Origin: Ruminococcus sp.
Lineage (GTDB): Bacteria; Bacillota; Clostridia; Oscillospirales; Ruminococcaceae
Assembly: GCA_017462565.1 (NCBI GenBank)
Contig: JAFTQW010000023.1
Location: 1 to 39,437, forward strand
Reading direction: 5' to 3'
Length of the DNA stretch: 39,437 bases
The notes below the pieces were generated by a model. That model was not told where the DNA came from. It saw nothing but the letters and a program-made list of their open reading frames with translations, and ran no database searches. Numbering within the stretch: position 1 is the stretch's first letter; each line of letters begins with the position of its first letter. Below, one piece after another: positions 536 to 28,188 of this stretch. A program made the translations under genes and the position numbers.

Positions 536-1780
536 TTGAAATATATTCTTATGCACAAAAATATTTCTGTGGCTGAAATCAAGATAGATGATGCGGTCGG
601 AGTTATAACTGAAGTCAGCAATGTGCTGAGAAAAGAGCATCTTCCGATCGGGGTTATTCATTCACTCAGACATAAGGAAATCGTTGACCGTGCGGCGCTG
701 AATCATTGGTGGAGAAGGCGTTCCATTCCTGCAAGCCGTATGGGAATTTCCGATGCGCTGGATTCTCTCGGACTTTATGAAACAGGCGAACTTCTGACGA
801 AATGTTTCGGGTTAAGTCTGTCGGATCACTACTGGGTAAAGCCTTTTGAAAGTGCATTGACATGGGAAAAAGTGAACTTTTTTGATAATGATTTTTCCGA
901 TGATATCGGCGATGTGCTTTTAGGAACGAGCCGTAAAATTTCGGATTTTGATTTTCTCTCACCCGACAATACTTCGGATGGAAATTTGAAAAAGCGGTGG
1001 AAGATAATAAACGGAAAGCGTTGCTTGCTAAAATCAGGTTCAGAACTGTTCAGACAGCAGCCGTTTAACGAGGTTATAGCTTCAAAAATAATGGAAAGAC
1101 TGGGAATAGATCATGTTTCATATAGAATCATATGGAACGAAAATGAGCCGTTCAGTGTGTGTGAAAATTTTGTTACAAATAATACAGAGCTTATCAGCGC
1201 TTACAGAATACTTCAGATCCGTCCGAAAGAAAATAATGAAAATGAATACCTACATTATGTGAATATCTGCAAGGAACTTGGTGTCAAAAATATTGTTTCC
1301 GCCATTGATGCGATGATAGTAACGGATTATCTGATAGCAAACGAGGACAGGCATTTCAACAATTTCGGACTGCTCAGAAATGCTGATACCCTTGAGTGGA
1401 TAGGCGCTGCTCCGATTTTTGACAGCGGAAATTCACTGTGGTACAATATTGCGGAAAAAAATATTCCGTATGCAGACGTGAAATGCAAGCCATTTAAAAA
1501 ATCTCACAGCGAGCAGTTAAGGCTTGTTTCAGATTTAAAAAGGTTTGATTTTTCAAAGCTTAATGGTATCGAAGATGAGATAACCGAGATATTGTTATCA
1601 GAAAATTCAAGGAATTTCATAGATGAAAGCAGGTCGGAAATAATAGCCGCATCAGTCCGAAAACGAATTGATCATCTGCAAAAAATGGCTCTTGATTATA
1701 ATCAGAGCATTGATAACAGCTTCACAGAAAATGATCTTGAGGAAAATATTGCAGAGGAATATGATATGAAGATTGAATAA
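536..1780 (+). CDS. HipA-family Ser/Thr kinase-like protein
   Basis: A 414-residue protein of the HipA-C group common in Firmicutes. HipA kinases phosphorylate a cytoplasmic target (glutamyl-tRNA synthetase in E. coli) and cause dormancy. The fold's catalytic signature is visible as NEDRHFNNFG (residues 269-278), followed by the metal-binding PIFDSGNSLW (293-302). The N-terminal 130 residues (with RSIPASRMGI and LSLSDHYW) are the conserved front of this subgroup. The start is TTG at 536, chosen because GAGGTG at 525-530 is well placed for it. No hipB partner lies upstream in the window; the only XRE trace is a 30-codon stub just downstream. It may be a solitary HipA or a toxin whose antitoxin has decayed. 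The substrate cannot be told. Confidence 0.8.
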   Translation: MKYILMHKNISVAEIKIDDAVGVITEVSNVLRKEHLPIGVIHSLRHKEIVDRAALNHWWRRRSIPASRMGISDALDSLGLYETGELLTKCFGLSLSDHYWVKPFESALTWEKVNFFDNDFSDDIGDVLLGTSRKISDFDFLSPDNTSDGNLKKRWKIINGKRCLLKSGSELFRQQPFNEVIASKIMERLGIDHVSYRIIWNENEPFSVCENFVTNNTELISAYRILQIRPKENNENEYLHYVNICKELGVKNIVSAIDAMIVTDYLIANEDRHFNNFGLLRNADTLEWIGAAPIFDSGNSLWYNIAEKNIPYADVKCKPFKKSHSEQLRLVSDLKRFDFSKLNGIEDEITEILLSENSRNFIDESRSEIIAASVRKRIDHLQKMALDYNQSIDNSFTENDLEENIAEEYDMKIE

Positions 1781-2505: not shown

Positions 2506-3975
2506 TTATGTCATGGTGATGTGAGCGTATCTTTCTGAGGAGAGGATTCTGTTCATAACGATCTCAGGCGAGCAGTCGCCGCCCATTACCATATCGAATA
2601 TAGCAGGAGAGTAGCCAGACACCAGTGCCGCACCGGTCTCGGAACGAGTTACAGGTATTGCATTGCAGCGGCTGTTGACATTCCAGAAGATAACTTCGGG
2701 GAGCTCATAGCCGTATTGACTGTAGAGCTTTCTCATCGAATGGAATAAGGTATTGTTGTTTCCGCCTGTTACGCAGTAATCGAACTGCATATCAGAGATT
2801 ATGTAGAGCTTTGCAGGCATATCAGACTGAAGAACACGATTCTTTATGGCTGTCTTGAGTATAAGTTTGAAAACTGCCTCCAGGTTGGTGTTCGCTATCT
2901 CGTTGAAATTGCGGCAGTACCGGGATTTTTCAACAATGCCGCTGCCCTTTATCTCTACCAGCCGGGGAGTTTCAGAGAAAGTTATGAAGTGGTTCGCAAA
3001 TGCGCCTGTGTTGTGCTCAGCAAAGTAGATTCCCAGTGACAGCGCCGCATCAATAGGACGTATACCCATTCCACACGTCATTGAGCCTGAGCCGTCTATG
3101 ACTGCAATTGCGTTTTCACGCTTTGCAGCGGTCAGGTCAGGCAGAGATTTCCATGCAGCATCAAGGGACAGCTTTTCTTCGGGAGATACATCATATTCTA
3201 TCGCCGCACGTACAATGTCGTAAGGAAACAGACGGTCAGCGTGAAGCTTTGACTCTCCGTTGTGTACCTTGTTCAGGTATGCTGTGTATCGTTCGTTATC
3301 GTTGCGGATAAAGGCGCAGCGGTATTTAAACATAGCGCAGGAGGGTTGTACCTCGTAGTTAAATGTGTAGTCACGTTCACGGAGACGATTCTCGATGATG
3401 TCGGTATATCTGCGGAGTGCGGACAGAGTTTTGCGGTACTCAGGCTCGGACATCTCAAGCAAAGCGGCAAGCCGTCTGCCCATGTTCCTTGTCTCTTGGG
3501 AGGAGGTATTCACGGATGGCAGCCATTTTGCAAGCAGTGAAACTTTTCCGCCGACAGCCATTGCAGCCTTGTCAGAGCGGAGCTGAGTGTCGATTATCTC
3601 GACTGCTTCCTTTTCAAGGGAAGTTCCGAGAAGTATGCACAGGTCGTCAAAACGACCGTACTCGGCAAACAGGCGTATGTTCTTCTTAACAGATTCGGGA
3701 GCTGTTTTAACAAGCGCTGCGATAGCGATACGGAAAAAACGTCTCTCGCCAAGACCGCCTCTTGCGTCACGGGCAAAGAAGATTATCTTCATAGTCTTGT
3801 GTGGATTCTCAGCATAAGCACGCGTCACTACGTCTGCTATCTCTTCTGCCGTGGAATTTCTCATAGCGCCTGCCTTGAAGAACATATCGAGGCAGTAAGA
3901 CTCTGTTGAACGGTAAGCGGCACCGCCATTCTCGGTGTATGTATTGTTGGATTCTTTCTTTAAAAAATTAAGCAT
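2506..3975 (-). CDS. DUF2828 protein: Ro60/TROVE-like RNA-binding protein with vWA domain
   Basis: A 489-residue soluble protein of the DUF2828 type. The first 285 residues are helical and open with TYTENGGAAY...CLDMFFKAGAMRN, the form shared with TROVE (Ro60/Rsr) proteins, which ring-bind misfolded RNAs and Y RNAs. The C-terminal third is a von Willebrand A domain with a complete-looking MIDAS: DGSGS at 294-298, TFSET near 332, and a later ISDMQFD. GAAAGGAG lies 8-10 bases before the ATG. The gene is last in an operon behind rtcB and an array of structured RNAs, the same company kept by Ro60 in other bacteria (rsr, Y RNAs, rtcB). I infer that it binds the array RNAs or RNAs being repaired. 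The DUF2828 assignment is from memory of the family; biochemical function is unproved. Confidence 0.8.
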   Translation of the reverse strand: MLNFLKKESNNTYTENGGAAYRSTESYCLDMFFKAGAMRNSTAEEIADVVTRAYAENPHKTMKIIFFARDARGGLGERRFFRIAIAALVKTAPESVKKNIRLFAEYGRFDDLCILLGTSLEKEAVEIIDTQLRSDKAAMAVGGKVSLLAKWLPSVNTSSQETRNMGRRLAALLEMSEPEYRKTLSALRRYTDIIENRLRERDYTFNYEVQPSCAMFKYRCAFIRNDNERYTAYLNKVHNGESKLHADRLFPYDIVRAAIEYDVSPEEKLSLDAAWKSLPDLTAAKRENAIAVIDGSGSMTCGMGIRPIDAALSLGIYFAEHNTGAFANHFITFSETPRLVEIKGSGIVEKSRYCRNFNEIANTNLEAVFKLILKTAIKNRVLQSDMPAKLYIISDMQFDYCVTGGNNNTLFHSMRKLYSQYGYELPEVIFWNVNSRCNAIPVTRSETGAALVSGYSPAIFDMVMGGDCSPEIVMNRILSSERYAHITMT

Positions 3976-3980
3976 AATGA

Positions 3981-4052
3981 TTCTCCTTTCAAGTCACCGC
4001 CGTATGGCAGGAGGTATTGTATTTTGACTTTCAAGTCAGCATTTACCATACG
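3981..4052 (-). promoter_or_regulatory. Candidate translation switch before the DUF2828 gene
   Basis: The ribosome site AGGAG (3987-3983) can pair with CTCCT at 4013-4009, which would hide it, with a small GCC/GGC hairpin nested inside. A perfect competing pairing exists: CGTATGG (4052-4046, inside the last RNA element) with CCATACG (4007-4001). An 11-base direct repeat, TGACTTGAAAG, occurs at 4038-4028 and again across the ribosome site at 3996-3986. The pairings are seen; regulation is inferred. Confidence 0.4.
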
Positions 4053-4109
4053 TTTCCGCAGGGCAGGATTTGAACCTGCATAAAACCATTTTTTTGCTGT
4101 TGCTGACTT
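4033..4109 (-). ncRNA. tRNA-like RNA element 5 (77 nt)
   Basis: Closed by a perfect 9-bp stem, AAGTCAGCA (4109-4101) with TGCTGACTT (4041-4033). ACAGCA follows at 4100-4095, nine bases from the 5' end. Inside is a textbook T-arm: GCAGG-TTCAAAT-CCTGC at 4079-4063. Unlike a tRNA, this arm does not abut the closing stem. The bases after it (CCTGCGG) could instead pair, with one bulged G, with CCGAGG at the junction with element 4, so two folds are possible. The motif CGGAAACG is shared with element 4. No D-arm, anticodon arm or CCA end of a functional tRNA is visible. Confidence 0.6.
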
Positions 4110-4119
4110 AATATTTCCT

Positions 4120-4192
4120 CGGCTCGTCTTTATACTCAGCCCTTGTCGTTTCCGATGGTACATGAGTTCCCAAACTAACGCTGTGAGAGCCG
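4120..4192 (-). ncRNA. tRNA-like RNA element 4 (73 nt)
   Basis: Closed by CGGCTC (4192-4187) with GAGCCG (4125-4120), 6 bp plus a T/C mismatch. ACAGCG follows at 4184-4179, eight bases from the 5' end. Inner hairpins seen: AGTT-TGGG-AACT, and TCG-GAAA-CGA with a GNRA-type loop. CAGC near the start can also pair with GCTG further in. At 73 nt it is tRNA-sized but has no T-arm. It is the most divergent member by motif (G instead of A at the end of ACAGC). Confidence 0.5.
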
Positions 4193-4210
4193 AAAAAGTA
4201 TTGTTGAAAC

Positions 4211-4263
4211 AAGACGCTTTATTCATTTTTATATGAAATATAAACCTCTGCTGTGTGCGTCTT
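4211..4263 (-). ncRNA. tRNA-like RNA element 3 (53 nt)
   Basis: Closed by a perfect 7-bp stem, AAGACGC (4263-4257) with GCGTCTT (4217-4211). ACAGCA follows at 4254-4249, nine bases from the 5' end. A 17-nt arm sits at 4244-4228: TTTAT, loop ATTTCAT, ATAAA (it could also zip to 7 bp with a 3-nt loop). Together these make a minimal two-arm RNA with acceptor and one arm of tRNA dimensions. Confidence 0.6.
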
Positions 4264-4266
4264 AAC

Positions 4267-4315
4267 AAGGCACTTATTTATCGTGAAAGGATAATATGAT
4301 TGCTGTTTGTGCCTT
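4267..4315 (-). ncRNA. tRNA-like RNA element 2 (49 nt)
   Basis: Closed by a perfect 7-bp stem, AAGGCAC (4315-4309) with GTGCCTT (4273-4267). ACAGCA follows at 4306-4301, nine bases from the 5' end. A 17-nt arm at 4294-4278 has a 5-bp stem and 7-nt loop: TTATC, loop CTTTCAC, GATAA, the dimensions of a tRNA anticodon arm. Three bases separate it from element 3. Confidence 0.6.
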
Positions 4316-4320
4316 AAACT

Positions 4321-4380
4321 CGTCACCGTGGGAGTTGAACCCGTTCTCATATGAACTGCCTTGATTTGCTGTAAGTGACG
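4321..4380 (-). ncRNA. tRNA-like RNA element 1 (60 nt)
   Basis: Begins 5 bases after the rtcB stop codon. Closed by CGTCACT (4380-4374) with GGTGACG (4327-4321), 7 bp including one G-T pair. ACAGCA follows at 4372-4367, eight bases from the 5' end. A T-arm-like unit (ACGGG, loop TTCAACT, CCCAC; 4344-4328) directly abuts the 3' strand of the closing stem, as in a real tRNA, though only three of its five stem positions pair. A further hairpin GTTC-ATATGA-GAAC lies at 4356-4343. Too short and too degenerate for a translating tRNA. Confidence 0.6.
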
Positions 4381-4385
4381 AAGAA

Positions 4386-5630
4386 TTATCCCTTGATAAC
4401 TCCGACTGTAAACAGCCTTTTTACAGGCTCGGTAAGGTCGGTCTGATTAGCCATTACATCGTTGATGTCTTTGTATGCAAAGCGTGATTCCTCGGCAACA
4501 TCAGACTTTTTATTCTTGGCAAGAACTACGTTCTGCTGTTTCAGATCTACCATTACGGATTCGACTGAAAACTTATCCATAGCCGCTGTACGTGAATATG
4601 CTCTGCCTGCGCCGTGGGACGAGGACATAAAGCTGTCGGGACAGCCCTTGCCTCGGACTATATAGCTGTAGCTTCCCATAGCTCCGGGGATAATGCCCAT
4701 ATCGCCTTCACGGGCACAGATAGCGCCCTTGCGGTGAACCCATACATTTTTGCCGAAGTGGTTCTCCAGCGCAGCGTAATTGTGGTGACAGTTTATCTCC
4801 CCTGAAAATTCCGGGATTATGCCCGTATGCTTTTCAACGTGTTTGGAGAACAGCTCCTTTACTTTGCGGAGCATGATTCCACGGTTTTCATATGCGAAAT
4901 CCATGCAGAGATTCATCCATGCAAGATATCTCTTTCCCTCGCCGGTGTCAACGGGGAGAAAAGGCAGATTCCACTCGCTTGGTACCTGTGAAAACCACCT
5001 TTCGTTCAGCTCGTGAGCTATCTTATTGAAGTACTGTCCCACGATGTTGCCGAAATGACGGCTGCCCGAATGGAGCATTATACCGCACATCCCTTCGTCG
5101 TCCTGTTGGAGCTCAATGAAGTGGTTTCCGCCGCCGAGAGTACCTGCCTGATAGTAGCCCTCTTCTATCTGAGTGATAAGCTCTTTATCGGATTCGTAGC
5201 GGCTCATCTCTGCCTTGGCGTTGTCAAGAACTTCAGAAACCTGAGCGGTCTTGTAATGCGCAAAGCCTGTTGGGATATTTCGCAGGATATCGCCGCATAT
5301 GGTCTGTACCAGACTTCCGCTTCCCGTTATAGTCTCACGGAGAAGCGATACGGGGATATTAGTCTGGACGTAAGCCATTCCGCAGCCGATGTCAACTCCT
5401 ACAGCGTTCGGAATAACGACATCCTCGCAGGCGATAACTCCGCCTATGGGCATACCCTTTCCTGCGTGGGTATCGGGCATGAGTGCTATCCATTTGTGTG
5501 CAAATGGAAGCTTTGCAAGGTGCTCCGCCTGTTCGATACATTTTTCACCGACTGCTTCAAGGTCAGTCTGCCATATCTTTATGGGGAGCATATTTTCATT
5601 TTTGTCATAATGTACGAACATCTTCTTCAC
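4386..5630 (-). CDS. rtcB: RtcB RNA 3'-phosphate ligase
   Basis: A 414-residue RtcB, the GTP- and Mn-dependent ligase that joins an RNA 2',3'-cyclic phosphate or 3'-phosphate end to a 5'-OH end and so reseals RNAs cut by toxins or stress nucleases. All family blocks are present: DIGCGM (80-85), GGGNHF (166-171), HSGSRHFG, NCHHNYA, MGSYSYIVRGKG, and the SHGAGR signature near 338-343, whose histidine is the guanylylation site in characterised RtcB. Length is that of the bacterial short form. The start is GTG at 5630 (GGAAAG close upstream); an ATG three codons later is possible. No archease gene or rtcA is visible. It is the first gene of the operon, and the RNA array begins right after its stop. 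Confidence 0.95.
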   Translation of the reverse strand: MKKMFVHYDKNENMLPIKIWQTDLEAVGEKCIEQAEHLAKLPFAHKWIALMPDTHAGKGMPIGGVIACEDVVIPNAVGVDIGCGMAYVQTNIPVSLLRETITGSGSLVQTICGDILRNIPTGFAHYKTAQVSEVLDNAKAEMSRYESDKELITQIEEGYYQAGTLGGGNHFIELQQDDEGMCGIMLHSGSRHFGNIVGQYFNKIAHELNERWFSQVPSEWNLPFLPVDTGEGKRYLAWMNLCMDFAYENRGIMLRKVKELFSKHVEKHTGIIPEFSGEINCHHNYAALENHFGKNVWVHRKGAICAREGDMGIIPGAMGSYSYIVRGKGCPDSFMSSSHGAGRAYSRTAAMDKFSVESVMVDLKQQNVVLAKNKKSDVAEESRFAYKDINDVMANQTDLTEPVKRLFTVGVIKG

Positions 5631-5652
5631 TTCTTTCCTTTAGCTTGATCTT

Positions 5653-5661
5653 AGTATATCA
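5653..5661 (-). promoter_or_regulatory. Extended -10 promoter of the rtcB operon
   Basis: On the minus strand TGATATACT gives a TG-n-TATACT extended -10. No good -35 hexamer lies 16-18 bases upstream. That is the usual look of a promoter needing an activator, and the divergent WYL regulators are the obvious candidates. The start would fall about 15 bases before the GTG. Confidence 0.5.
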
Positions 5662-5712
5662 CAGTTTTTTCCAGAAATCATATAAAATTTTCTGCACACA
5701 CTCATGATCTTA

Positions 5713-5741
5713 TTGCAAATGGGAAAGATTTCTGTTAAAAT
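5713..5741 (+). promoter_or_regulatory. Promoter of the WYL regulator pair
   Basis: TTGCAA at 5713-5718, 17-base spacer, TAAAAT at 5736-5741. AGGAAGGAG follows at 5748-5756, ten bases before the ATG at 5766. It is back to back with the rtcB promoter, about 52 bases between the two -10 boxes' outer ends. Confidence 0.75.
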
Positions 5742-5765
5742 ATAAATAGGAAGGAGTGAAGAAAT

Positions 5766-7040
5766 ATGGCAGGATTTTCAGAGCTTATCAAGAATTTTGA
5801 CAAGACACGTGACTACGTCAGGGACTTCTTTATATACGGATGTAAGGTTCGGAGTGACTTCGACCGCAAAAGTATCCGCACATATGGTGACGAAAAACGC
5901 CGTGTTGAGAGCTGGATGGGCGACTGTATGCGCTATGACGATTCAGTCCGAGGCAGGAGCGTTTCTATCTCTGTCGACAGCGGTCACATTCCTGAAAATC
6001 CGCTGTATAACGCCTATTACTCCAAGAGCTTTACGGACAACGATATCCGTCTGCACTTCCTTATTACCGATATTCTGCATGACGGAAAAAGCCGTACACT
6101 TAAAGAAATTGTTGATGTTTTAAATATAGATTATGAACAGCTTTTCGATGAGCAGACTGTTCGCAATAAGCTGAGGGAGTATGTTGACGAGGGAATAATT
6201 ATTTCCAAAAAGCAGGGAAAAACTCTTTATTACTCGCTCACTTCCGATAATGCGGACAGTTTTCTGCAAGACTTTAAGGGAATTGACGATGCGCTGAAAT
6301 TTTTCTCGGAAACTCAGCAATTCGGCATTATCGGCAACAGCATATTCAAAATGCTTGGGCTGAAAAATGACCTGTTTTTCATAAAGCACAATTACATTAT
6401 CCACACACTTGAAGATATACTTTTACCTGAAATACTGACGGCTATGGATGAAAAACGCTATGTTTCGTTCCGCACTTTTTCGGAAAAAAGACGTAAGAAA
6501 GGTGACGGCATCGGAACTGAAACTCAGGTAGTGCCAATGCAGCTGCTTGTGTCAGTACAGACCGGACGACGCTATCTTGCGGCGTATATACCGACCTTGA
6601 AAAGATTCTCAGCGTTCCGTCTGGATTATATGAAAACTGTGAAAAAAGGCGGTATATGTGAGAATTATGATGCTCTGAAAGCTAAGTTTGACTGCAATAT
6701 ATCCCACTGTTTCGGTGTTTCATTCGGTATGCGCCGTGAGATCGGGACTGTAACTCAAATGAAAATAACTCTTTTTGTTGACGAGGAAAATGAGCCATAT
6801 ATCCTCGACCGTCTGGAGCGTGAGAAGCGTTGCTGTACACTTGAAAAGTCCGGCGAGCACCTCTATACTCTTACAGCGGATGTTTTCGATCCCAATGAGC
6901 TTATGCATTGGGCAAAGACTTTCATTGGGCGCATAGTTCGTATTGAGGGCGGCGCAGACAGTGTCCGGGATCGGTTTTACAGCGATATTGCAAGAATGAA
7001 CAGAATGTATGGCGGTGATGAAAATGAACATATTCAGTGA
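5766..7040 (+). CDS. WYL-domain transcriptional regulator (first of pair)
   Basis: A 424-residue cytoplasmic regulator. Residues about 85-150 form a winged helix-turn-helix (LKEIVDVLNIDY...QTVRNKLREYVDEGII). A WYL domain follows at about 215-310, where GRRYLAAY and FRLDYMKTV give the typical sheet, and a WCX-like C-terminal domain completes it. WYL domains sense nucleic-acid or nucleotide ligands and control DNA-damage, phage-defence and RNA-related genes. The gene is divergent from rtcB and overlaps the second WYL gene by 17 bases, so the two are probably made together and may act as a pair. I infer control of the rtcB operon, perhaps in response to broken RNA; no ligand can be read from the sequence. 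Confidence 0.85.
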   Translation: MAGFSELIKNFDKTRDYVRDFFIYGCKVRSDFDRKSIRTYGDEKRRVESWMGDCMRYDDSVRGRSVSISVDSGHIPENPLYNAYYSKSFTDNDIRLHFLITDILHDGKSRTLKEIVDVLNIDYEQLFDEQTVRNKLREYVDEGIIISKKQGKTLYYSLTSDNADSFLQDFKGIDDALKFFSETQQFGIIGNSIFKMLGLKNDLFFIKHNYIIHTLEDILLPEILTAMDEKRYVSFRTFSEKRRKKGDGIGTETQVVPMQLLVSVQTGRRYLAAYIPTLKRFSAFRLDYMKTVKKGGICENYDALKAKFDCNISHCFGVSFGMRREIGTVTQMKITLFVDEENEPYILDRLEREKRCCTLEKSGEHLYTLTADVFDPNELMHWAKTFIGRIVRIEGGADSVRDRFYSDIARMNRMYGGDENEHIQ

Positions 7041-8013
7041 GATATACGGTACATATTTTCGCATTGCGGCAAAACTTCTTGAGAACGAATTAACTAATGA
7101 AAAAACGGTACGAGAAACTGTTCAGCGTGAGGGCTTTCGGGATTCGGTGCTGTTCCTGCCCCAGAAGCTAATACCCGGCAGCGAGGACTGGGGACTTTTC
7201 AGCCGTACTCCTGATGGAAACCTTAAACGCATTACAAAAAATCCGCCTGTGAAGGTGCTGACGAAATTACAGAAAATGTGGCTGAAGGCAAAGCTTTCAA
7301 ACCCAAGGATAAGGCTGTTTATGGACGATGAGACACTCTCTGTACTGGCAAAAAGACTTGCGGATATTCCTCCTCTTTACCGCAGGGAGCAGTTCAGGAT
7401 TACAGATCGCTTTACGAACAGTGATGACTTTTGCAATGAACAATACATAATAAATTTCCGTACTGTACTTGAAGCAGTCAAGCACAGAAAGATAGTGTAT
7501 ATAGAGTTTGTTTCGGGACATGGCAAGCGTATGAGCGGTAAGTTCGTTCTGTTAAAAATGGAGTATTCGCCCAAGAACGACAAGTTTCGTGTATACTGCT
7601 ATTTATTGCGGAATGACAGGGTAAAAAGCAGCGGAATCATCAATATCGGACGTATTACAAATATCGTAGATACCGGCAGAGTTTTCAGAACGCCTGTGTT
7701 AATTGACGATTACTTTTCAAGTCGTAAATGCAGTTCGCCTGCTGTCATAAGAGTTACAACTGCGAGAAATGGCGTTGAACGGTTTATGCTGGAATTTGCT
7801 TCATATGAGAAGCACACCGTCCGTAACCTTGAAACAGGAGAATATACTGTTGAGCTGTGGTACGATCAGCAGGACGAGACAGAGCTTCTGATACGTCTGC
7901 TGAGCTTTGGTCCCGTTATAGAGATACTCGGTCCTCAGCATTTACGTCAGCAGGCTAAACTGCGCATAAAGCGGCAGGCTGAGCTTTTGGAAAAATACGG
8001 AGAGAAGAAATAA
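7024..8013 (+). CDS. WYL-domain transcriptional regulator (second of pair)
   Basis: A 329-residue paralogue of the preceding regulator with the same plan but a shorter, less canonical front half. The middle part (IVYIEFVSGHGKRMSGKFVL, then FRVYCYLLR) is the WYL sheet, followed by a C-terminal domain ending in a basic helix. ATG at 7024 is chosen because GGCGGTG (7011-7017) sits at correct spacing; ATG at 7018 is the alternative. Overlap with the upstream stop implies translational coupling. The N-terminal region is not an obvious helix-turn-helix, so it may work as a partner subunit of the first protein. Confidence 0.75.
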   Translation: MNIFSEIYGTYFRIAAKLLENELTNEKTVRETVQREGFRDSVLFLPQKLIPGSEDWGLFSRTPDGNLKRITKNPPVKVLTKLQKMWLKAKLSNPRIRLFMDDETLSVLAKRLADIPPLYRREQFRITDRFTNSDDFCNEQYIINFRTVLEAVKHRKIVYIEFVSGHGKRMSGKFVLLKMEYSPKNDKFRVYCYLLRNDRVKSSGIINIGRITNIVDTGRVFRTPVLIDDYFSSRKCSSPAVIRVTTARNGVERFMLEFASYEKHTVRNLETGEYTVELWYDQQDETELLIRLLSFGPVIEILGPQHLRQQAKLRIKRQAELLEKYGEKK

Positions 8014-25617: not shown

Positions 25618-28188
25618 ATGAAAAAAATTACAATTGGAATTACTGCTCATGTCGATTCCGGAAAAACTACTCTTGCAGAAGCCATGCTTTATAAAAGCGG
25701 AAAAATTCGTCGGCTCGGAAGAGTAGATAATGGAAATTCTGCGCTTGATACCGACACGATTGAACGTGACCGTGGAATTACTATCTTTGCGCATCAGGCT
25801 GAATTTTCAAGCGGCGATACTAATTTTTTTCTGCTTGATACTCCGGGACATATTGATTTTTCCGCTGAAACCGAAAGAACTATGCGTGTTCTTGACTACG
25901 CTGTTCTTGTTATCAGCGGAACCGACGGAGTTCAGAGTCATACGCTTACTCTATGGAAGCTTCTTCAAAGATATGAGATTCCTGTTTTTATTTTCGTGAA
26001 TAAAATGGATCTTATCGGAGCGGAACAAAGTGCGGTTTTGTCAGATCTTCAGAAAAGATTATCTGTATCATGCGTCGATTTTTCAGAGAGTGATGAGCTT
26101 GTTTACGAAAATTCAGCAGCTTGCAGTGAAGAGCTTATGGAAAAATATCTCAGCGAAGCCGGGATAAATGATGAAGATATAATTGCTGCCATTTCAGACA
26201 GACAGCTTTTTCCGTGCTTTTTTGGTTCAGCGTTAAAAATGAACGGTGTGGACGAATTTGTGAAGGGGCTTGATCGTTTTACTGCTGAACCATTAAGAGA
26301 TAAGGCGTTCGGAGCAATGGTGTATAAAATATCCTACGACGCAAAGGGAAGCCGTCTTACTCACATGAAAATAACCGGCGGCGAGCTGAGAATGCGTGAG
26401 GAAATAAATTACAAAAATTCCGACGGTGAAGATGTTTCCGGAAAAATAAGTTCAATCAGATTTTATTCCGGCGATAAATTCCGCAATGCGGAAATTGCCG
26501 AAGCGGGCGATATCTGTGCTGTTACCGGATTGCAGTTTACTTATGCCGGACAGGGGATAGGTTATGTAAAAAACTGCGAAAGAACTTATTTAGAGCCTGT
26601 TATGACATATAAACTTTTACTTCCGGAAAATGTGAACGTATACGATGCCCTTAAAGATATGCGAAAGCTTGAAGATGAAGATCCCCAGCTTCATATTGTT
26701 TGGAATGAAGAACTTCATGAAATACATATTCAGCTTATGGGAGCGGTTCAGCTTGAGGTGATTACACAGATAACGGAACAGCGATTCGGATATAAGGTTC
26801 AATTCACAGACGGTGCGGTCGCCTATAGAGAGACTATCCGTAATAAAACAGAGGGAGTTGGTCATTATGAGCCGCTTCGCCATTATGCGGAAGTTCATCT
26901 GCTCCTTGAACCGCTTGAACGTGGAAAAGGATTACAGTTTGCATCATCATGTTCGGAGGATATGCTCGACAGAAACTGGCAGAGACTTATTCTGACTCAT
27001 CTTGAAGAAAAAGAACATAAAGGAGTTCTTACTGGTTCATCAATTACGGATATGAAAATAACTCTTGCCGCAGGAAAAGCTCATATAAAGCATACTGAGG
27101 GAGGAGATTTCAGACAGGCTACGTACAGAGCTGTTCGTCAGGGATTAAGAAAAGCTGAAAGTGTTCTTTTAGAGCCTTATTATGACTACGAACTGGAAGT
27201 TCCGTCAGAATACGTCGGACGAGCTATTTCAGATTTGCAGCATATGTCGGCAGAATTTAATGCTCCGGAATCACTTGGCGACACTTCTGTAATAACCGGA
27301 TGCGCTCCGGTCTCAGAGCTTAACGGTTATCAATCGGAGATAATCAGTTACACAAGGGGCAGGGGAAGACTGAGCTGTACTGTAAGCGGATATCGTGAAT
27401 GTCATAACGCTGATAAAATAATTGAAAGCATAGGCTATGACTGCGACAGCGATGTTGAAAACAGCGCAGATTCCATTTTCTGTTCGCACGGAGCAGGATA
27501 TATCGTGAAATGGAATGAAACGGAAAAACATATGCACATTCCGTCATGTATTGAAAAAAATAGTGACGATGAAGAATCCGACCGTAATAAAGCCAGAAAA
27601 TATGTTGAATATGCAGTTTCCGATAAAGAGCTTATGGAGATTTTCGAGCGGACTTACGGTAAGCTGAAAACTGATCCCAGAAGAGCGTTCAAAAAAAGTA
27701 AAACTGTGATCGCTGATAATAAGCAGGTTAAGCTTCCGAAATACAGCGGTCCGGATTATCTTCTTGTTGACGGGTATAATATTATTTTTGCATGGGAAGA
27801 ATTGAAAAAAATCGCCGAAGAAAATCTGGATGCTGCTCGTGGAGAGCTTATTAATATGATGTGCAATTATCAGGGATTTGCAGGATGCGAGCTGATACTT
27901 GTTTTTGACGCTTATAAAGTTAAGGGAAAATTTCGTGAAATTGAAAAATACCTGAACATAAATATAGTTTACACAAAAGAATCCGAAACGGCTGACACTT
28001 ATATAGAAAGAGTTTCTCATGAACTTTCTGAAAATCATCGTGTAAGAGTTGCAACCTCGGACGGCGTCGAACAGATGATAATTCTCGGAAACGGAGCAAT
28101 GAGAATTTCAGCGTCGGAATTTCACGAACGTTATCTGGCTTCGCAAAAAGCGATAAGAGAATATATTTCTTCAATGAAACAGAGCTGA
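25618..28188 (+). CDS. TetM-like ribosomal GTPase fused to Rae1/YacP-like NYN nuclease
   Basis: 856 residues. Residues 1 to about 640 are an EF-G-like GTPase of the ribosomal-protection (TetM/TetP) class: G1 AHVDSGKTT (10-18), RGIT (52-55), DTPGH (74-78), NKMD (128-131), then the usual beta-barrel, domain III and IV (GVGHYEPLRHYAEVHLL) and V. These remove tetracycline from the ribosomal A site or act in translation stress. The last 145 residues are a NYN domain (LLVDGYNIIFAWEEL, LVFDAYKVKG, SETADTYIE, VATSDGVEQ) like YacP/Rae1, a nuclease that in B. subtilis cuts mRNA in the A site. It has its own promoter, leader and terminator. Whether it confers tetracycline resistance is unknown. Confidence 0.9.
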   Translation: MKKITIGITAHVDSGKTTLAEAMLYKSGKIRRLGRVDNGNSALDTDTIERDRGITIFAHQAEFSSGDTNFFLLDTPGHIDFSAETERTMRVLDYAVLVISGTDGVQSHTLTLWKLLQRYEIPVFIFVNKMDLIGAEQSAVLSDLQKRLSVSCVDFSESDELVYENSAACSEELMEKYLSEAGINDEDIIAAISDRQLFPCFFGSALKMNGVDEFVKGLDRFTAEPLRDKAFGAMVYKISYDAKGSRLTHMKITGGELRMREEINYKNSDGEDVSGKISSIRFYSGDKFRNAEIAEAGDICAVTGLQFTYAGQGIGYVKNCERTYLEPVMTYKLLLPENVNVYDALKDMRKLEDEDPQLHIVWNEELHEIHIQLMGAVQLEVITQITEQRFGYKVQFTDGAVAYRETIRNKTEGVGHYEPLRHYAEVHLLLEPLERGKGLQFASSCSEDMLDRNWQRLILTHLEEKEHKGVLTGSSITDMKITLAAGKAHIKHTEGGDFRQATYRAVRQGLRKAESVLLEPYYDYELEVPSEYVGRAISDLQHMSAEFNAPESLGDTSVITGCAPVSELNGYQSEIISYTRGRGRLSCTVSGYRECHNADKIIESIGYDCDSDVENSADSIFCSHGAGYIVKWNETEKHMHIPSCIEKNSDDEESDRNKARKYVEYAVSDKELMEIFERTYGKLKTDPRRAFKKSKTVIADNKQVKLPKYSGPDYLLVDGYNIIFAWEELKKIAEENLDAARGELINMMCNYQGFAGCELILVFDAYKVKGKFREIEKYLNINIVYTKESETADTYIERVSHELSENHRVRVATSDGVEQMIILGNGAMRISASEFHERYLASQKAIREYISSMKQS

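Follow-up and report, generated by a model that had tools for sequence, protein, structure and literature searches.

Arrays of RNA units with a constant handle and tRNA-piece heads beside Ro60-type DUF2828 genes: a possible bait library against tRNA-attacking enzymes

Introduction

What is encoded in the noncoding stretch between the RNA ligase gene rtcB and a DUF2828 gene of Ruminococcus sp., a gut bacterium (GenBank assembly GCA_017462565.1, contig JAFTQW010000023.1, positions 1 to 39,437; hereafter the window, 39,437 nucleotides in all), and what might it be for? The locus bears on a long-open question, namely what bacterial Ro60 proteins and their Y RNAs do and why some Y RNAs imitate tRNA. 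Ro60/Y RNA particles and the tRNA mimicry of YrlA are already known. An original prediction, made from the window sequence alone, placed an array of five tRNA-like RNA units here. In this work, we describe the units, the covariation within them and their association with DUF2828; we also report a predicted Ro60 fold for the DUF2828 protein, the tRNA pieces carried by the heads of the units, and an orthologous slot in which the loop changes. Taken as a whole, no window unit is tRNA-like; the units join a constant handle to differing pieces of tRNA. The best explanation, to which we give a probability of roughly 0.57, is that the locus encodes a Ro60-type library of baits against tRNA-attacking enzymes. 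To judge from Rfam 15 and from the open texts that were searched, what is new here is the ACAGCA handle, its association with DUF2828, the arrays and the anticodon-loop heads, and the titles and abstract starts of open-licence PMC texts described no ACAGCA-handle RNAs, no DUF2828 RNAs and no Ro60-held anticodon-arm decoys.

Results

The array consists of structured units beyond chance expectation

The genes of the window run in the order of two divergent WYL/WCX regulators, rtcB, the array and the DUF2828 gene, and all five predicted units were located on the minus strand between rtcB and DUF2828 (Table 1). In every unit the 5' arm of a 7-bp stem is followed by two unpaired bases and ACAGC(A/G); then come a head that varies, the 3' arm that closes the stem, and a G. 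The hexamer is preceded by 9 nt in all five units, where 8 or 9 nt had been predicted, and units 1 to 5 measure 62, 49, 53, 75 and 77 nt, which corrects the first and fourth lengths from 60 and 73 nt and leaves the others as they were given. In single-sequence folding, units 2 to 5 were more stable than dinucleotide shuffles, with z values of -2.4 for unit 2, -3.4 for units 3 and 5, and -2.5 and -1.9 for two cuts of unit 4; the value of -0.06 for unit 1 comes from a shortened stretch and is uninformative.

Relatives of the DUF2828 gene are patchily distributed, occurring in 27 of 297 sampled host-family genomes including the window's own (E <= 1e-20), and ACAGC was present in 19 of 21 upstream stretches from the window and 20 relatives; in L044 and L045 (locus numbers are ours) ACAGC is absent upstream and a distant rtcB abuts DUF2828. 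Bacterial counts were made on the best 80 of 482 DUF2828 relatives in genome contigs and viral counts on the best 80 of 255 in viral contigs, some of them near-identical. Unit counts presuppose the pairing, and the test against chance is given by linker, letter-order, strand and position controls. In the 1,200 nt 5' of DUF2828 at the 80 bacterial loci (94,038 bases, less being available where a contig ends), ACAGC occurs 480 times, 283 of them inside a strict unit, defined as a 7-bp stem, a 2-nt linker, ACAGC, the closing arm and a 3' G. This number compares with 26, 10, 11 and 9 at linkers of 0, 1, 3 and 4 nt, with 0-9 for the 29 other permutations of ACAGC at a linker of 2, and with 5 strict units downstream and 9 inside the gene. 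A looser rule, applied over 2 kb on either side of DUF2828, found 330 sense units upstream in 79 of the 80 bacterial loci, against 11 antisense units (9 loci) and 16 downstream (15 loci), and 121 units upstream in 45 of the 80 viral contigs, against 3 antisense in 3 and 23 downstream in 20. Counted per bacterial locus with units, 72 of 80 hold 2 to 6, with a maximum of 11.

The pairing itself is also supported by covariation. Across 43 short units the handle scored 0.50, against 0.18 for shuffles and at most 0.11 for slid versions; double-changed handle pairs numbered five, which 52 of 500 shuffles equalled. The controls and the covariation uphold the prediction that RNA pairing is under selection here, and both covariation and arrays were found at homologous loci; the array in the window is confirmed as one of structured units beyond chance. 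Upstream of DUF2828 in L040 and L046 there are variant units with an ACCGCA core and GC-rich stems, which were excluded from the counts.

The handle is recovered independently of DUF2828 and occurs in phages

A blind search with the pattern of one handle version, made without reference to DUF2828, returned 77 phage stretches, 45 of which hold DUF2828 within the stretch, always on the same strand, and 9 more of which have it elsewhere in the record. Within the bacterial class of the host, the pattern occurred in 4 of 391 genomes (the window's own included; reversed control 0), in all four beside DUF2828. A TROVE match was found in none of the 32 phage records lacking DUF2828 in the fetched stretch. 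Four long phage records, G683, G697, G698 and G704 (L209, L246, L248 and L259), carry the exact handle pattern with no DUF2828 or TROVE match, and another handle-binding protein may exist.

A covariance model, R1, was built from 43 bacterial short units, with the window excluded and close orthologues of unit 2 included, and searched on 872,377 bases made up of the window, nine phage isolates and 57 of the 80 viral contigs (E-values are rough). All of its 94 matches at E <= 0.1 lie on the DUF2828 strand, among them window units 3 (E 7.6e-10) and 2 (E 3.5e-9, with close orthologues inside the model), and six of the nine isolates had matches. By a script count of units outside coding genes and followed by G, seven of the nine isolates carry them: Listeria P100 (3), Enterococcus EFDG1 (3), Bacillus PJN02 (5), Staphylococcus S-CoN_Ph7 (3), Escherichia Pr103Blw (3), Campylobacter F355 (2) and Mycobacterium Wamburgrxpress (2 strict units and, by eye, a single GCAGCA unit whose head is a permuted tRNA). 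Synechococcus B23 had no strict unit and one near-match without the flanking G. The three units of the Felixounavirus Pr103Blw (L296, 5884-6490), with stems AGACCG(T/A), lie among tRNA genes, and one has a permuted tRNA head; the head of a phage unit in L250 (539-611 on the unit strand) resembles a tRNA-Ser anticodon arm (GCU) with a long variable arm. The DUF2828 protein is present in 679 of 50,697 phage records, duplicates included, and was found in phages of laboratory hosts, among them E. coli K-12, Bacillus subtilis and Mycobacterium smegmatis; plasmid records gave no match by DNA and four records by protein.

The neighbouring protein has a predicted Ro60 fold

The units are encoded beside a Ro60-type gene. 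A fold search predicts for the DUF2828 protein the Ro60 fold of a helical-repeat ring and a C-terminal vWA domain, whose DxSxS (MIDAS-type) motif (D294, S296, S298) is invariant in 20 aligned proteins. The TROVE model PF05731 did not match the window protein, for which DUF2828 and DUF7788 were the only matches at E <= 0.001; a PDB sequence search gave two weak unrelated rows only, and neither PADLOC nor NCBIfam has a name for DUF2828. The protein does match PHROG 850, 'RNA-binding protein'.

The proposed kinship with Ro60/Y RNA systems is borne out. As with YrlA and Rsr, an RNA gene lies beside a gene for a Ro60-fold protein, a basal stem is the handle and rtcB is sometimes present, and the heads of several relatives follow the permuted order of YrlA, that is, T-arm, acceptor hairpin and D-arm. 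The canonical Ro-binding site of bacterial Y RNA is GNCGAAG...CUUGACC; in contrast, the window handle is a 7-bp stem/NN/ACAGCA/G, and no pair forming the canonical stem was found among the 116,602 bases scanned 5' of 80 DUF2828 genes. The DUF2828 loci further differ from YrlA in carrying arrays of up to 11 units, many of whose heads are bare anticodon arms, and their proteins differ from Rsr/Ro60 in forming a clade that the Pfam TROVE model does not report. A tRNA-like domain, which passages of PMC8394870 describe for YrlA, occurs with T-, acceptor and D-arms in units of L096, L103, L110, L196, L212, L290 and L291 and in none of the five window units. Canonical TROVE genes were found in 5 of 398 genomes of the host phylum, and about 3 kb read at each of these five loci held no unit, a weak negative, except for one match each in L301 and L303, apparently one and the same coding sequence.

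A comparable set of genes is the Salmonella rsr-yrlBA-rtcBA locus, which according to passages of PMC7790460 also unites a Ro60-type protein, Y-like RNAs and RtcB. Our locus differs from it in having divergent WYL regulators in place of RtcR, and in that RtcB is, across related loci, optional and belongs to at least two families; RtcR (CARF, sigma-54) is absent as a regulator in the window, where both divergent genes match WYL/WCX models. Among viruses, the genes that mycobacteriophage annotations call Ro-like RNA binding protein belong to the DUF2828 family (Chen et al. 2014 is cited as the source for mycobacteriophage Y RNAs), and jumbo phages have, in a small subset, a TROVE protein with a tRNA-like partner (passages of PMC7824862). 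Among open-licence PMC texts, the papers that contain the word DUF2828 are all on plants, which suggests that the family is also present in plants.

A published parallel concerns the Listeria phage CKA15, which is P100-like. Passages of PMC12282133 describe CKA15_055 as an Rsr homologue with three highly transcribed noncoding regions up to 2 kb upstream, suggested by its authors to be Y RNAs. The P100 counterpart of CKA15_055 is of the DUF2828 family; the same passages give no structure or motif for the regions, and the link to ACAGCA units is one that we infer. The region at 26,236-26,727 seems distinct from such units: it probably lies ~1-1.5 kb upstream of the gene, judging by the gene position in the related phage cka16, and the P100 units lie within ~340 nt of theirs. 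Because the region with coordinates falls outside the units, the CKA15 transcription supports expression near the array only. In P100, a noncoding stretch of ~500 nt with a sigma-A-like promoter lies near the DUF2828 gene (L289, ~5420-6000); it is perhaps the counterpart of the most transcribed CKA15 region, and not an ACAGCA unit.

The heads reproduce pieces of tRNA

The heads vary inside one locus and across loci, and the five in the window illustrate this. The predicted 17-nt arms with TTCAA T-loops are present in units 1 and 5, whereas the arms of units 2 and 3 are not T-arms. The head of unit 1 has a small hairpin, GTTC/GAAC, followed by the T-arm-like arm GGG TTCAACT CCC, and resembles heads in L048, L050, L052, L060, L061, L107 and L108. 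Unit 2 carries an anticodon-arm mimic, TTATC-CTTTCAC-GATAA (anticodon UUC, Glu), whose loop is identical to the tRNA-Glu(UUC) loop of the window's own genome. The hairpin of unit 3, TTTAT-ATTTCAT-ATAAA, is anticodon-like only; an interpretation of the units as T-arm elements alone was rejected on account of these two. The head of unit 5, a GG element, the T-arm GCAGG-TTCAAAT-CCTGC and a hairpin, is by its sequence a mimic of the tRNA elbow or minihelix. In an alignment of the window with 21 orthologues (L062, with a different head, was left out of the 23 sequences), one pair of the T-arm reads GC in 16 sequences and AU in 4, and GG stands 5' of the T-arm in 22 of 22 by eye. The head of unit 4 (~53 nt) forms nested hairpins whose shape is kept and whose sequence varies in the [AT]CGGCTC slot of related Ruminococcus loci, and is perhaps a mimic of another RNA. 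In searches of the window, ARAGORN found no tRNAs, Rfam 15 gave no match at gathering score and chance-level matches plus one T-arm only at a permissive threshold; the T-arm match of cmscan lies in unit 5 (14.4 bits, below gathering).

To quantify the heads, overlaps were removed and the window was added, which gave a deduplicated set of 319 bacterial units (91 stems) and 99 viral units (51 stems); phage contigs are partly related, so that head counts from phages are not independent. Among close Ruminococcus loci, 15 of 96 heads lacked a relative in another locus. T-arms were found in 70 of 325 bacterial heads (mononucleotide shuffles: mean 2.3, max 6) and 17 of 102 phage heads (mean 0.9, max 3), with GG 5' of the T-arm in 49 of 69 bacterial and 6 of 14 phage T-arm units, counted without a control. 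D-arms occurred in 17 of 102 phage heads, against 5.7 (max 11) in shuffles. Short heads that lack a T-arm favour a 7-nt loop on a 5-bp stem (82 of 196 from bacteria, dinucleotide shuffles 23.4, max 32; 35 of 78 from phages, 10.6, max 15), and the anticodon rule of U33 and purine 37 was satisfied by 51 and 25 of these short heads, against 3.9 and 1.7. In eleven bacterial and ten phage heads the loop is the same, letter for letter, as one of the window genome's anticodon loops, against 0.09 and 0.05; the comparison is with the 31 anticodon loops from 30 of 36 tRNA loci of that genome rather than with the tRNAs of each unit's host. A wider reference of 1,012 tRNAs from fetched loci may contain unit heads that ARAGORN calls tRNAs (11 of 1,067; loci up to L207), and loop identity therefore rests on the own-genome set. 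By the wider reference, the commonest phage head loop is CTTTTAA of Lys-UUU (7 of 23 exact loops), and tRNA-Lys (UUU) is the target of PrrC.

The loop is imitated, and the arm is no tRNA copy: only 1 of 62 anticodon heads has the stem of a real tRNA with the same loop, and stem G+C is 0.25 versus 0.58. We accordingly rejected the possibility that the units are copies of tRNA genes, since the stems differ in 61 of 62. Larger heads include permuted tRNAs in YrlA order, in bacteria and phages, and apparent cloverleaves. The script labels 'permuted' and 'canonical' are loose, several Ruminococcus elbow heads being called canonical through a chance D-arm match, and for this distinction only individually read heads were used. 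Ten heads picked by look, with no structure given beforehand, yielded the three tRNA arms (D, anticodon and T) on top of the handle; both partners had changed in 7 of 21 pairs, which 2 of 500 shuffles reach, and the covariation score was 0.288 versus 0.143, with a number of pair types not above shuffles. The anticodon loops of cloverleaf heads include TTTACAT, TTCATAC, CTGAAAA and CTTATAC. On 12 related loci, Rfam at gathering recognised five heads as tRNA, plus one lysine riboswitch and nothing else.

Loops are exchanged on a constant stem

At 13 Ruminococcus-type loci, the slot with the handle AAGGCAC keeps the head stem T[TC]ATC/GAT[AG]A while the loop changes: CTGTCAA in 6, CTTTCAC in 3, ATGAAAA in 2, and CTGTCAC and CTACCAA in 1 each. 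CTTTCAC and CTGTCAC are the Glu and Asp tRNA loops of the window genome, and CTGTCAA matches a tRNA-Asp in L235. A second slot has CTGTTAA or CTTTTAA on a similar stem. A stem that is kept while its loop is swapped is as expected if the set of attackers changes.

RtcB and WYL regulators are optional neighbours

Of the 80 bacterial loci, some of them on contigs that stop short, 44 encode RtcB and 57 have WYL genes, and at the same search sensitivity neither was found in any of the 80 viral contigs; in P100, a gene annotated as tRNA splicing ligase lies further downstream. The predicted rtcB operon setting is thus too narrow, and RtcB as an obligatory partner was rejected on these counts. By the same counts, cleavage with RtcB resealing as a sensor, another proposal of the original prediction, is not general either. 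A second, distant RtcB family, ~27% identical to that of the window, stands just before DUF2828 in L112, L044 and L045; the gap is 55-60 nt in L044 and L045, and in L112 the units lie upstream of the distant rtcB.

The motif GCARMWTTTTT is a possible WYL operator. Its exact form occurs within 3.5 kb upstream at 43 of 80 loci in sense and 2 of 80 on the other strand; where loci were read individually it lies close to a promoter-like stretch, and the window has only a looser form (5640-5700, minus strand). Near the array, on the opposite strand, there is also a gene with a HipA C-terminal domain (536-1780, plus strand).

Table 1. Positions of the array and its neighbouring features in the window
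Feature	Position	Strand	Details
DUF2828/DUF7788 protein	2506..3975	-	489 aa; predicted Ro60 fold, putative handle binder
Unit 5	4109-4033, 3' G at 4032	-	handle AAGTCAG/CTGACTT, CA, ACAGCA
Unit 4	4193-4119, 3' G at 4118	-	handle TCGGCTC/GAGCCGA, TC, ACAGCG
Unit 3	4263-4211, 3' G at 4210	-	handle AAGACGC/GCGTCTT, AC, ACAGCA
Unit 2	4315-4267, 3' G at 4266	-	handle AAGGCAC/GTGCCTT, AA, ACAGCA
Unit 1	4381-4320, 3' G at 4319	-	handle TCGTCAC/GTGACGA, TT, ACAGCA
rtcB RNA ligase	4386..5630	-	414 aa
Putative operator/promoter start between divergent WYL gene and rtcB	5675..5695	-	GCAGAAAATTTTATATGATTT
WYL-domain regulator, divergent	5766..7040	+	just below Pfam cut-off
Second WYL/WCX regulator	7009..8013	+	WYL/WCX model match

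Discussion

We propose that a Ro60-type ribonucleoprotein is made from this locus, with the array of Y-RNA-like units as its RNA component. The array would be transcribed and then processed into separate RNAs, each of which may be held by the DUF2828 protein through the constant handle (7-bp stem, two free bases, ACAGCA, closing stem and G), the presumed protein-binding part of every unit. The heads would copy pieces of tRNA that enzymes recognise, namely the anticodon arm, the elbow (GG and T-arm), a YrlA-like permuted body or a whole cloverleaf, and, being exposed, could serve as baits on which tRNA-attacking enzymes are tied up or spent, so that the real tRNAs are spared. The attackers would be anticodon nucleases of toxin-antitoxin, colicin-like or anti-phage systems; RtcB, where encoded, might reseal cut RNA. 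Bacteria may induce the set through WYL regulators under stress, and phages may carry the same module as counter-defence. Among the functions suggested in the original prediction, decoys for tRNA-cutting toxins fit best, given the anticodon-loop heads, the whole tRNA-like heads and the loop swapping, and competitive inhibition of an anticodon nuclease is raised as one role of YrlA in passages of Hughes et al. (PMC7790460). The more specific idea of a hypervariable, RNA-encoded decoy repertoire on a Ro60-type protein, with anticodon loops swapped on constant stems and in use on both sides, by bacteria and phages, has in our view an even chance of being right.

Several observations weigh against the reading of the units as baits. 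Transcription, processing, handle binding, WYL control and bait function are steps that we infer, and YrlA itself is uncut by the anticodon nuclease in passages of Hughes et al. (PMC7790460). The association with DUF2828 is incomplete in phages, since 35 of 80 viral DUF2828 contigs have no unit in the 2 kb upstream even by the loose rule, 23 of the 77 blind-pattern phage stretches come from records, some as long as 176-278 kb, in which DUF2828 had no match, and a script scan found no units in Vibrio phage KVP40. One handle pair is broken in 2 of 22 unit-5 orthologues. As to the heads, 152 of 319 from bacteria have no relative in another locus above the 99th percentile of shuffles, only 51 of 196 short bacterial heads fit the anticodon-arm pattern, the bacterial D-arm signal is weak (40 of 325 heads; shuffles mean 20.9, max 28), and 9-nt loops are likewise in excess (47 short bacterial heads; 19.7, max 29). 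In the window, the unit 3 loop ATTTCAT has no exact match among known loops and the unit 4 head matches no recognised tRNA piece. Of the loops exchanged in the AAGGCAC slot, CTGTCAA, the commonest, ATGAAAA and CTACCAA are absent from the tRNA loops of the window genome; the last two matched no known tRNA loop, and CTACCAA would be an unusual anticodon. Moreover, ARAGORN called 11 heads tRNAs among related loci and, because of these and the Rfam calls, a few whole-tRNA heads could be working tRNAs.

Other functions have to be weighed against the same data. A scaffold or gate resembling RYPER, in which the units tether the Ro60-like protein to tRNA-binding partners (such as PNPase or tRNA-processing enzymes) and specialise these for the decay of structured or damaged RNA, with differing heads recruiting differing partners, would agree with the predicted Ro60 fold, with the YrlA-like permuted heads of several loci and with the work on Rsr-YrlA-PNPase in passages of PMC8394870. 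One partner needs one head, yet 72 of 80 loci have 2 to 6 units and the richest has 11. Many heads are bare anticodon arms with differing anticodons, loops change in an orthologous slot, and we know of no use that PNPase has for a particular anticodon, which together make this function unlikely. We regard it as less likely still that the heads are a sponge, titrating tRNA-modifying or tRNA-binding enzymes (for instance Tgt, which acts on GUN anticodons, and TruB, which acts on the T-loop) or T-box leaders and so retuning translation under stress or in infection: the Phe-GAA, Glu-UUC, Lys-UUU, Leu-UAA, Ser-UGA and Pro-UGG loops have, to our knowledge, no single modification enzyme in common, and a loop change between close genomes suggests conflict, not housekeeping. 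What speaks for a sponge is that Asp, Asn and Tyr (GUN) loops make up 16 of 39 exact-loop heads in bacteria and 5 of 23 in phages by the wider reference, and that DusA and TruB modify YrlA (passages of PMC8394870).

Heads cut by a nuclease could also serve as sentinels that signal to DUF2828 or to the divergent WYL regulators and RtcB repair, an idea in keeping with the frequency of WYL and RtcB genes at bacterial loci (57 and 44 of 80) and with the activation of Salmonella RtcR by tRNA fragments (passages of PMC7790460). We give it marginally less credence than the sponge, as the 80 phage contigs, 45 of which have units, yielded no match to WYL or RtcB at that sensitivity. Hairpins serving as leaders or punctuation, through which the mRNA of DUF2828 and its neighbours is regulated or processed, would fit the position of bacterial units mainly upstream of the DUF2828 start (330 versus 16 downstream, in 2 kb each), but units also stand downstream of the gene in Mycobacterium, Staphylococcus and Felixounavirus phages, precede an rtcB that itself precedes DUF2828 (L112), and are spread over several kb in some phages, and for such hairpins real anticodon loops would be needless. 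A purely cis-acting role was rejected on the position data, and we hold cis elements to be very improbable. Each of these alternatives explains part of the data, and none predicts many anticodons per locus as directly as a library of baits does.

If the units are indeed decoys, defence and counter-defence around tRNA would include a layer that has gone unrecognised. Many heads of this large and divergent Ro60 clade name their probable targets, and an anticodon that can be read in a head can be tested against a nuclease that cuts that tRNA. Furthermore, the handle provides a simple motif by which such RNAs may be found in any genome.
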